A stretch of 64,000 nucleotides of DNA from Haloferax massiliensis (GTDB lineage: Archaea; Halobacteriota; Halobacteria; Halobacteriales; Haloferacaceae), in the NCBI RefSeq assembly GCF_001368915.1, contig NZ_CSTE01000001.1:571364-635363 (forward strand). The letters are read 5' to 3'. The translations under genes were made by a program, and so were the position numbers. Within the stretch, counting starts at the first letter, position 1, and every line of letters starts with the position of its first letter. The notes below the pieces were generated by a model. It was not told the origin of the DNA. It saw only the letters and a program-made list of their open reading frames with translations, and searched no databases. Below are positions 11,321 through 13,794 of this stretch, one piece after another.

Positions 11321-12747
11321 TGGTCGTCGGAGACATCGCAACCGGAACCGAACTGCTCGTCATCGGCGCGGGGCCGGGCGGCTACGTCGCCGCCATCCGC
11401 GCCGCACAGAACGGCATCGACACGACGCTCGTCGAGAAGGACGCCTACGGGGGCACCTGCCTCAACTACGGCTGTATCCCCTCGAAGGCGCTCATCACGG
11501 GCGCGAACCTCGCCCACGAGGCGGGCAACGCCGAGGAGATGGGCATCCACGCCGACCCCGTCGTCGACATGTCGCAACTGCGCGACTGGAAGAGCGGCGT
11601 CGTCGACCAACTCACCGGCGGCGTCGAGAAGCTCTGTAAGGCAAACGGCGTCAATCTCGTCGAGGGGACCGCCCGCTTCAAAGACGAGAACGCCGTCCGC
11701 ATCGCCCACGGCGGCGAAGGGCAGGGCTCGGAGACCGTCGAGTTCGAACACTGCATCATCGCCACCGGCTCGCGCGTCATCCAGATTCCCGGCTTCGACT
11801 TCGGCGACGAGCCGGTGTGGTCGTCGCGGGACGCCCTCGAAGCCGACACCGTCCCGGAGCGACTGGTCGTCGTGGGCGGCGGCTACATCGGGATGGAGCT
11901 GTCGACGACGTTCGCCAAGCTCGGCGCGGACGTGACCGTCGTGGAGATGCTCGACGACATCCTGCCGGGCTACGAGTCCGACGTGGCCCGCGTCGTCCGC
12001 AAGCGCGCCGAGGACCTCGGCATCGACATGCACTTCGGCGAGGGGGCCAGCGGCTGGCGCGACGAGGACGACGGTATCATGGTGACCACCGAGACCGAAG
12101 ACGGCGAGGAAAACGAGTACCGCGCCGACAAGGTGCTCGTCGCCGTCGGGCGCTCGCCCGTCACCGACACGATGGACATCGAGAGCGCCGGCCTCGAAGC
12201 CGACGACCGCGGGTTCCTCTCGGTCGACGAGTGCCGCCGCACCGACGTCGAGCACATCTACGCCGTCGGCGACGTGGTCGAGGACACGCCGATGCTCGCG
12301 CACGTCGCCTCGAAAGAGGGCATCGTCGCCGCCGAGCACGTCGCCGGCGAGCCGGTCGCCTTCGACAGTCAGGCCGTCCCCGCCGCCGTCTTCACCGACC
12401 CCGAAATCGGCACGGTCGGCATGACGGAAGCCGACGCCGAGGAAGCCGGCTTTTCGCCCGTCGTCGGGCAGATGCCGTTCCGGGCGTCCGGCCGCGCGCT
12501 GACGACGAACCACGCCGACGGCTTCGTCCGCGTCGTCGCCGACGAGGAGTCCGGATTCGTCCTCGGGGCGCAAATCGTCGGCCCCGAGGCCTCGGAGCTA
12601 ATCGCGGAACTCGCGTTCGCCATCGAGATGGGCGCGACGCTCGAAGACGTGGCGTCGACCATCCACACCCACCCGACGCTCGCGGAAGCGGTCATGGAGG
12701 CCGCCGAGAACGCGCTCGGACAGGCGATTCACACGCTGAATCGGTGA
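11320..12747 (+). CDS. lpdA: Dihydrolipoyl dehydrogenase, E3 component
   Basis: FAD disulfide oxidoreductase that re-oxidises dihydrolipoamide on E2 with NAD+. It shows the FAD-binding GAGPGGY, the redox-active CX4C at Cys47 and Cys52 (GGTCLNYGCIPSK), a second dinucleotide fold VVGGGYIGMEL, and the C-terminal catalytic His in HTHPTLAEA. The 475 residues are standard. It is the last gene of the operon; a T6 tract lies about 30 bases after the stop. Confidence 0.96.
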   Translation: MVVGDIATGTELLVIGAGPGGYVAAIRAAQNGIDTTLVEKDAYGGTCLNYGCIPSKALITGANLAHEAGNAEEMGIHADPVVDMSQLRDWKSGVVDQLTGGVEKLCKANGVNLVEGTARFKDENAVRIAHGGEGQGSETVEFEHCIIATGSRVIQIPGFDFGDEPVWSSRDALEADTVPERLVVVGGGYIGMELSTTFAKLGADVTVVEMLDDILPGYESDVARVVRKRAEDLGIDMHFGEGASGWRDEDDGIMVTTETEDGEENEYRADKVLVAVGRSPVTDTMDIESAGLEADDRGFLSVDECRRTDVEHIYAVGDVVEDTPMLAHVASKEGIVAAEHVAGEPVAFDSQAVPAAVFTDPEIGTVGMTEADAEEAGFSPVVGQMPFRASGRALTTNHADGFVRVVADEESGFVLGAQIVGPEASELIAELAFAIEMGATLEDVASTIHTHPTLAEAVMEAAENALGQAIHTLNR

Positions 12748-12774
12748 GGTGAGGAGCGTCGAAAAGCGGGAGGA

Positions 12775-12781
12775 CTTTTTT
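12775..12781 (+). terminator. Oligo-T terminator of the pdh operon
   Basis: A run of six T follows a GC-rich stretch shortly after the E3 stop, in the gap before the convergent XRE gene. This is the usual form of a haloarchaeal terminator. Confidence 0.5.
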
Positions 12782-12992
12782 ACGCGGTCAGGTCGCCGTC
12801 GAGCTCCGGGTCGAAGACGTCCTCGACGCGACAGTCGAAGTACGCCGCCAGCTTGAACGCCAGTTCGAGCGAGGGGTCGTACCGCTCGCGCTCGATGGCG
12901 TTGATTGTCTGTCGGGTGACGCCGACCGCTTCGGCGAGTTCGCCCTGACTGAGGTCTGCGGCCTCGCGGCGCGTGCGGACCCCGTTTTTCAT
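12780..12992 (-). CDS. XRE-family HTH transcriptional regulator
   Basis: A 70-residue, nearly bare helix-turn-helix domain: LSQGELAEAVGVTRQTINAIE matches the Cro/C1/YgzD type. Start at 12992 (MKNGVRTRRE), whose ATG overlaps the stop of the DUF2178 gene; the upstream extension of the frame belongs to that gene. Small XRE proteins of this type are commonly paired with a DUF2178 membrane protein in archaea. It probably represses its own operon through the repeats at 13411-13475. Confidence 0.9.
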   Translation of the reverse strand: MKNGVRTRREAADLSQGELAEAVGVTRQTINAIERERYDPSLELAFKLAAYFDCRVEDVFDPELDGDLTA

Positions 12993-13405
12993 GTCCGAGC
13001 GCGGACCCAGAGGTAGCACAGGGCGAAGAGACCGAACAGTCCGACGAAGCCGTACAGCGCGCCCGAGACGAACGGCGAGACCTCGAACAGCCCGAGCGTC
13101 GCGCCGAGTCGGGCGGCGGACGCGCCGAGGACGAGGATTACCGCGGCGACGGTCATGGTGAGCTGACTCGCCCGTCGTTCGAGCGACCGGTCGCGCTCGT
13201 CGAACAGCGCGACGTCGGTGCCGCGCCAGACGGCGAGCGCGGCGACGATGCCGAGCCAGTAGACGGCTTCGCCGACCACGGGGTAGTCGAGAAACCGGAG
13301 GACGAGGGAGGCGAGCACGCCGACCCCGATGGAGCCGAACAGCAGGCGTCGATACCGCCGTCGTCTGGAGAGCCGAGGCGTCGGTGAGCGTTGGACCTGT
13401 GTCAT
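12989..13405 (-). CDS. DUF2178-like integral membrane protein
   Basis: A 138-residue membrane protein with about four hydrophobic segments arranged as two pairs (GSIGVGVLASLVLRFL and YWLGIVAALAVW, then TVAAVILVLG and GFVGLFGLFALCYLW). The central cytoplasmic loop DERDRSLERRASQLT is the hallmark of DUF2178. Function unknown; it is co-transcribed with and overlaps the XRE gene downstream. The ATG at 13405 is preferred to one at 13465, because that longer frame runs through the palindromic operator. Confidence 0.78.
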   Translation of the reverse strand: MTQVQRSPTPRLSRRRRYRRLLFGSIGVGVLASLVLRFLDYPVVGEAVYWLGIVAALAVWRGTDVALFDERDRSLERRASQLTMTVAAVILVLGASAARLGATLGLFEVSPFVSGALYGFVGLFGLFALCYLWVRART

Positions 13406-13410
13406 AGTTC

Positions 13411-13475
13411 TGTGTAAAGCGCCGGGTCGGAGACCGGGTGGAAAGTTCGCTTTACAGTAAAGCATACTTTACACA
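13411..13475. promoter_or_regulatory. Operator-like nested inverted repeats upstream of the DUF2178-XRE operon
   Basis: TGTGTAAAG at 13411-13419 and its exact complement CTTTACACA at 13467-13475 flank a perfect palindrome GCTTTAC-A-GTAAAGC at 13449-13463. That makes four GTAAAG half-sites within 65 bases, spanning the likely TATA and start region of the operon. Most likely this is the binding region of the XRE protein. Confidence 0.65.
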
Positions 13476-13602
13476 CCGACTTAATCGTTGTCCCGGTTCG
13501 GTCGCGTCGCTCCGAGGTTCGCGCGGCCGCAGAGAAGGGCGTCAGCGTCGGTTCAGTTCGAGTCGGGCGGGTTCAGTCCGGGTCGGGTCGGTTCATGGTC
13601 GC

Positions 13603-13794
13603 TCACCCGTCGTCGAACCACCACAGCACCAGCATCGTCCCCACGACCGCCGCGGCCGCGGGAATCGACTCGTCGACGCCGAGCGTGCGGACGTCGAGGA
13701 GGACGACGCCCTCGAACAGGGCGGCGAGCGCGAGGGCCACGAAGACGAAGCCCGCCACCCATAGCTCGGGCGTGTTGACGTCGCTGATTGGCAT
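13603..13794 (-). CDS. Small membrane protein, 63 residues, unknown function
   Basis: Two predicted transmembrane helices: WVAGFVFVALALAALFEGVV (about 12-31) and PAAAAVVGTMLVLWWF at the C terminus, joined by a short acidic loop (LLDVRTLGVDES). The ATG at 13794 has an AT-richer stretch behind it (13810-13840), the expected promoter side. I recognise no family; it looks like one of the many two-helix haloarchaeal proteins. It stands alone between the XRE operon and serB. Confidence 0.65.
   Translation of the reverse strand: MPISDVNTPELWVAGFVFVALALAALFEGVVLLDVRTLGVDESIPAAAAVVGTMLVLWWFDDG

Follow-up and report, generated by a model that had tools for sequence, protein, structure and literature searches.

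A tandem dyad array as the predicted operator of an XRE regulator encoded with a DUF2178 membrane protein in Haloferax massiliensis

The 33-bp array upstream of a two-gene operon in Haloferax massiliensis is, in our judgment, very likely the operator for the XRE regulator that the operon itself encodes, a site where two adjacent dimers would repress this operon, with a DUF2178 membrane protein as partner. Both genes are on the minus strand; the first encodes the DUF2178 membrane protein (12989 to 13405; 138 aa, four predicted helices), and the second encodes the CylR2-like XRE regulator (xre, 12780 to 12992; 70 aa) and overlaps the DUF2178 stop codon by ATGA. Judging from its sequence and its position, the array is probably an autorepression site. 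The original prediction of cooperative autorepression by the XRE protein stands insofar as the array is a conserved cis-element of this operon that is tied genome by genome to the XRE protein and lies over the predicted transcription start, but the nested-palindrome anatomy on which it was built is not supported.

The array runs on the minus strand from 13472 to 13440 of the window (the whole 64,000-nucleotide stretch of DNA that was analyzed) and consists of two 16-bp dyads, GTAAAG-N4-CTTTAC, with a single T between them; read on the gene strand, it is GTGTAAAG-TATG-CTTTAC-T-GTAAAG-CGAA-CTTTCC. Dyad 1 (GTAAAG-TATG-CTTTAC, 13457 to 13472, minus strand) matches at 12/12 positions and is the genome's only perfect single dyad. 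Dyad 2 (GTAAAG-CGAA-CTTTCC, 13440 to 13455, minus strand) matches at 11/12, its outer half being degenerate, and the second dyad is kept in orthologues. The one-base junction at 13456 (minus strand), which lay outside the template used to pick arrays, is 99% T in 54 representative arrays (pseudocounts included). All four of the GTAAAG half-sites originally described are present where they had been placed (on the plus strand, GTAAAG at 13414-13419, CTTTAC at 13450-13455, GTAAAG at 13457-13462, and CTTTAC at 13467-13472), and a fifth had been overlooked: the degenerate GGAAAG at 13440-13445 (plus strand), which is the outer half of dyad 2 and the partner of 13450-13455. The exact 15-base palindrome GCTTTAC-A-GTAAAGC (13449 to 13463) spans the point where dyads 1 and 2 meet, and an outer inverted repeat is formed by TGTGTAAAG (13411-13419) and CTTTACACA (13467-13475), which are 100% complementary over 9 bases.

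Odd palindromes of 15 bases number 28 in the window, versus a mean of 14.75 (range, 9 to 20) in 20 first-order Markov resamplings of the window; window-wide, they are about twice as frequent as in the resamplings. The palindrome alone is ordinary, and the combined array is beyond chance. Measured against the template GTAAAGN4CTTTAC-N-GTAAAGN4CTTTAC, the array matches 23/24 defined bases; the runner-up in the window reaches 14 and the best resampling 16. Across the 4.0-Mb genome, CTTTACNGTAAAG occurs once (reversed control, 0), and a single dyad with one mismatch is found only at dyad 2 and at one other site (C1:195227), which was inspected as raw sequence. With up to two mismatches, a single dyad is found at 13 places versus 50 for the reversed control. 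No further regulon sites were found in the focal 4.0-Mb genome, where the array is present once, which suggests that the operator probably controls its own operon only.

Orthologous promoters were drawn from the best 80 of 485 confirmed XRE relatives in named genomes and the best 30 from the family's other genomes, and removal of 8 duplicates left 102 distinct loci, a nonrandom sample of the best-scoring relatives. The same half-sites, sought upstream of the orthologous xre-DUF2178 pairs, were found as an array of at least 20/24 bases within 700 bp upstream of xre at 72 of these loci. The other 30 have no array in those 700 bp. In eight of them, with longer operons, the array or a weakened form stands farther from xre, at -800 to -1350. 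L020 has a pair of dyads spaced at 19 bp. A single dyad of at least 10/12 bases is present at 14 others, methanogens included, and two of these are doubtful because they lie more than 1 kb away. The last seven have no standard dyad, two of the seven having the GGAAAG variant. Clustering of the 72 array loci on their flanks gave 54 representatives, in which the half-site columns reach 1.0 to 1.9 bits; this conservation is partly built in, since the loci were picked by array score. The count of 72/102 and the co-occurrence across genomes described below are independent of the score-selected alignment, and the unselected junction base reaches 1.87 bits in the representatives. Seven of their eight spacer columns are under 1 bit, with G26 reaching 1.30, and the flanks of the 72 array loci have a mean pairwise identity of 34%. 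A haloarchaeal-type xre with a 23/24 array was also seen on a contig labeled as a Gemmatimonadetes MAG (L030), which would reflect either mis-binning or transfer.

The spacing of the dyads was compared in 130 distinct loci, with a dyad taken as at least 10/12 bases. Among 97 dyad-to-dyad spacings of up to 80 bp, 77 are of 17 bp, nine each are of 16 and 33 bp, and one each is of 19 and 36 bp; the 33-bp spacings represent a third dyad. This spacing is nearly fixed, as is characteristic of a cooperative tandem operator, and fits two dimers in contact, which makes their cooperative binding plausible. At 35 of the 130 loci, a dyad has no second one passing the cutoff within 80 bp, and in four of these 35 (L005, L019, L039, and L062) there is a weak second dyad in register. 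A further 16 loci lack a standard dyad, some of them having the GG variant and others nothing recognized, and the junction CTTTAC-N-GTAAAG was found without a dyad in none of these 16. Because lone dyads are common and the junction occurs alone at none of these 16 loci, GTAAAG-N4-CTTTAC is most likely the site that one dimer would occupy. The repeated unit is thus this dyad and not the nested palindromes of the original prediction. The 15-base palindrome is exact but ordinary by chance and is not the unit that is repeated; it appears to be the seam between two dyads, with no role as a binding unit on its own. As a bound unit it was rejected both for its chance frequency and for the absence of the junction at the loci without a dyad.

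The additional half-site CTTTAC in the leader (13414 to 13419, minus strand) lies 20 bp beyond the array and is looser and facultative. Half-sites of this class are real, with variable spacing: an extra CTTTAC is found beyond 20 of the 72 arrays, versus 11 of 6,069 other 50-bp windows and 0 of 72 upstream, and its distance from the array among these 20 varies from 8 to 37 bp. Seven of the 20 sit 10 bp past the array, where each would complete a degenerate third dyad abutting the array as that dyad's right half, a pattern that the focal extra half-site does not fit at its 20 bp. The outer inverted repeat, although perfectly complementary, is not a fixed unit, and a fixed cooperative role for it is not supported by this presence and spacing.

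The original placement of the repeats over the promoter agrees with the predicted transcription start. A BRE/TATA-like element, GACAACGATTAAGT (13479 to 13492, minus strand), corresponds to positions -20 to -7 of the alignment ahead of the array, which are conserved among the 54 representatives (A-16, 91%; T-11, 91%; A-10, 79%), so that a TATA-like element is found at a fixed distance, 7 to 20 bp before the array, and the array is directly downstream of it. The focal TATA-like box, ATTAAGT, is weak. The usual archaeal spacing from the center of the TATA box to the start is about 26 bp, which, with the box just upstream, puts the predicted start near the junction base at 13456, and the array would cover it.

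The array is also linked to the regulator across genomes. In a sample of 292 genomes of the same class, a search with the L069 protein as the query (E up to 0.001) found an XRE relative in 172, and the array was found at up to three mismatches in 124 (reversed control, 0/292). All 124 genomes with the array encode an XRE relative, and the array is present in 0 of the 120 genomes without one (Fisher P of about 1e-42, without correction for shared ancestry); in 48 genomes, an XRE relative is encoded and the three-mismatch search found no array. A DNA pattern search was used to retrieve 30 arrays, taking the genomes as they were listed (30 of the 124) and one array from each. In 24 of these, an XRE recognition-helix motif follows on the same strand at a distance of 504 to 989 bp. 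Of the remaining six, three precede an ABC ATPase motif and three a DUF3887/alpha-beta-hydrolase-type lipoprotein. Pfam confirmed the hydrolase type for the L185 and L188 proteins and ABC_tran for that of L013; the best NCBIfam models (DrrA for the ABC ATPases of L188 and L195, EstD for the L185 hydrolase) all scored below their cutoffs.

Several arrays at other genes were observed individually. A weaker array in Halobacterium salinarum (L013:2762-2794, 21/24) lies downstream of xre, and an ABC transporter ATPase gene begins about 65 bp beyond it, which suggests that this gene is a second target. Arrays of 24/24 precede lipoprotein-like hydrolases with DUF3887 at L185, L187, L188, and L189 (by Pfam for L185 and L188 only), and at L188 and L189 a nearby ABC ATPase gene has its own array. 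At L194 (G313:C42:94500-101500), there are two divergent arrays, each directly preceding a gene whose product resembles, as judged by eye, a DUF2178 membrane protein.

The XRE protein belongs to Pfam family HTH_3 (PF01381; E = 8.2e-17, 61.4 bits against a cutoff of 23). Its nearest PDB match is 9k3w (E = 1.9e-15, 51% identity), with CylR2 second (E = 1.5e-14 for 2xiu and 4.2e-13; 45 to 47% identity), and fold comparison gave TM scores of 0.85 to 0.88 to 9k3w and 0.80 to 0.82 to CylR2. The AF2 model (mean pLDDT, 91) has helices at residues 5-11, 16-23, 27-34, 42-51, and 56-59 and two-residue strands at 2-3 and 60-61. CylR2-type proteins have about 66 to 70 aa, five helices, and terminal strands, and by its close sequence and fold, its size, and its five helices the focal protein is of this type. 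Identity to the focal protein among 33 aligned relatives is 60 to 84%.

Variation in the half-sites follows the regulator in part, at residue 35, which sits after the recognition helix. Both half-sites are of the GGAAAG type in 5/6 rows with A at this residue, 1/3 with G, and 1/1 with N (L053, L069, L079 and its repeat L126, L125, L127, and L150), versus 0/112 rows with R, of which 15 have one half changed. The exceptions are G35 at L131 and L153 and V35 at L132, with GTAA-type or partly degenerate sites, and A35 at L152, with a weak site; the four T35 loci comprise one with a mixed site and three with none. The K35 locus L078, scored GG inside the upstream coding region, was set aside. On the XRE tree, which was built from 129 rows and 64 columns and leaves many forks open, the covariation needs about three changes. 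We regard it as supporting, but not decisive, evidence for a link between the XRE protein and the array. A one-residue specificity code at position 35 was considered as well and holds only partly, given these exceptions and the poorly resolved tree.

The DUF2178 protein matches its Pfam family marginally (PF09946; E = 4.6e-5, 23.9 bits against a cutoff of 22.8). Its AF2 model (mean pLDDT, 82; pTM, 0.53) has four long helices, with a conserved DER loop (D69-E70-R71) between helices 2 and 3. An ATG-started open reading frame of 95 to 170 codons ends near the xre start at 94 of the 102 loci, picked as the most hydrophobic without a hydrophobicity cutoff (L055 is doubtful), and 91 of these 94 have a DE(R/L) motif. 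The partner diverges far more than the XRE protein, with 14 to 62% identity to the focal DUF2178 protein among 34 aligned; with an E threshold of 0.01, Pfam DUF2178 is recognized in 22 of the 34. A second membrane protein at L191 scores 21.8, just below the PF09946 cutoff. The gene cylR1 lies upstream of cylR2, and, as in that pair, the membrane partner here is encoded directly upstream of the regulator in the same operon. The word DUF2178 appears in no paper of the open-access literature searched.

Alignment of 15 Haloferax genomes outlines a module of xre, the DUF2178 gene, and the operator (12746 to 13602, boundaries approximate). Besides the focal genome, G028, G117, and G091 carry it at this locus; the site lacks it in 10 of the 15 genomes, and one more has a decayed copy. 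The flanking genes are only about 25 to 41 bp apart in G112, G097, G121, G107, G085, G130, and G127, and in G102, G065, and G124 the gap holds about 0.6 to 1.6 kb that does not match the module; junctions were read directly for G130, G127, and G049 and taken from alignment coordinates for the others. In the decayed copy (L223, G049:C11:535300-536000, same locus), only the C-terminal half of xre is left, and the operator and the DUF2178 gene are gone. This pattern of presence and absence suggests that operator and genes come and go together. The gap after the dihydrolipoamide dehydrogenase gene varies in content (about 12746 to 13602 in the focal genome; also G102, G091, G065, and G124), and this site may be an insertion hotspot.

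Other explanations of the repeats have to be weighed against these data. That they are chance palindromes of a GC-rich genome can practically be discounted: 15-base odd palindromes are indeed common here, with 28 in the window, but the array is kept at 72 of 102 orthologous loci and co-occurs with the XRE protein by genome. We also consider it improbable that some other trans-acting regulator (e.g., a metal or redox regulator) uses the array as its operator and has xre-DUF2178 as just one of its targets. Arrays before ABC ATPase or hydrolase genes in some genomes would fit such a regulator; however, the array is in none of the 120 genomes without an XRE relative, 24 of the 30 arrays examined precede xre itself, the half-site variants partly follow XRE residue 35, and the focal genome has only one other one-mismatch site. 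Inverted repeats close to a start codon might instead act as RNA structure in the leader, which appears very improbable, because with the predicted start inside the array dyad 2 alone would be transcribed, the half-sites recur as identical sequence and not as changed-but-matching pairs (judged by conservation, not by a covariation test), and no Rfam family matches at the gathering score in 12700-13650.

How the XRE protein would act on transcription is the remaining choice. Archaeal activators are unusual downstream of the TATA box and over the start. The array is downstream of the TATA-like box and over the predicted start, and it is quite unlikely that the XRE protein activates, or activates and represses in turn like the controller (C) proteins of restriction-modification systems, although the third, degenerate dyad at L038, L060, and L070 would favor this. 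Such a role would also agree with two adjacent dimer sites and the TA-rich spacer in dyad 1, features of C-protein operators in the accessible part of one description (PMC3758141).

We prefer autorepression, for which the following mechanism is proposed. The half-site centers of each dyad are 10 bp apart, which suggests that each dyad would bind one XRE dimer in the manner of 434-type dimers, where the half-site centers are likewise 10 bp apart. With the predicted start near 13456, two XRE dimers side by side over it would block the loading of RNA polymerase, and blocked loading would result in autorepression, probably cooperative. Less certain is the step in which the four-helix DUF2178 protein would relieve repression upon sensing a signal from the envelope or from a compound; the analogy is with CylR1/CylR2, and the DUF2178 protein may be the sensor of the XRE protein, with its DER loop as a candidate contact. 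This sensor role and the CylR1/CylR2-like design are additions beyond the original prediction. A broader reading, which we put forward tentatively and think rather doubtful, is that XRE-DUF2178 is a widespread archaeal phosphorylation-free relay from membrane to DNA, a counterpart of CylR1/CylR2 whose stimulus would be a membrane-active compound or a peptide (perhaps a halocin or a signaling peptide) and whose response would be to lift repression of its own operon and, in certain species, of genes for an ABC exporter and a lipoprotein hydrolase with the same tandem operator. If true, this would be the first function for the DUF2178 family.

The system is of a known kind, in which a CylR2-type repressor is paired with a membrane protein; in the open-access literature searched, no report was found of such a system in this setting or of this operator. 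The analysis provides a base-precise predicted operator for a regulator whose relatives occur in 172 of the 292 genomes searched from the class, and it connects the uncharacterized DUF2178 membrane family with a regulator that has a bacterial relative relaying a signal from outside the cell. Since exporter and lipoprotein genes are possibly coregulated, the signal can be sought.

The protein with the nearest solved structure, Deinococcus radiodurans DR_2454 (PDB 9k3w), is bacterial and was compared as a protein only. Among the controller proteins, C.AhdI and C.BclI are found among the XRE fold matches, and C.Esp1396I, as described in the accessible text, forms small HTH dimers that bind two adjacent dyads (35-bp OL+OR) as a cooperative tetramer at its own promoter (PMC3758141), an arrangement that the XRE protein would share on its predicted dyads. 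These proteins differ in having a GAC/GACT half-site, restriction-modification genes, and a bacterial promoter, and the accessible part of that source mentions no membrane partner (PMC3758141); the half-site here is GTAAAG, and the focal operon holds only DUF2178 and xre. A different, long-spaced arrangement appears in the available text on C.Csp231I (PMC4321490). For archaeal MBF1, CylR2 serves only as a structural template in what is accessible of that study (PMC3062615). CylR2 (PDB 1utx and 2xiu; 66 aa) is a small HTH repressor with 45 to 47% identity to the XRE protein and the same fold, and both regulators are encoded with a small membrane protein. In Enterococcus faecalis, according to the accessible portions of the reports, induction requires CylR1, which is suspected to be a membrane protein, and the repressor CylR2 is thought to leave its promoter (PMC3709268, PMC5454873), the small membrane protein being thought to signal without a phosphorelay (PMC3709268, PMC5454873, PMC11343131). 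CylR1 is described there with three predicted transmembrane helices (PMC5454873), versus four predicted helices in the DUF2178-type partner; the likeness drawn here is one of design. The xre-DUF2178 system differs from CylR1/CylR2 in being haloarchaeal, in its predicted tandem operator over its own promoter, and in a focal operon of two genes only.
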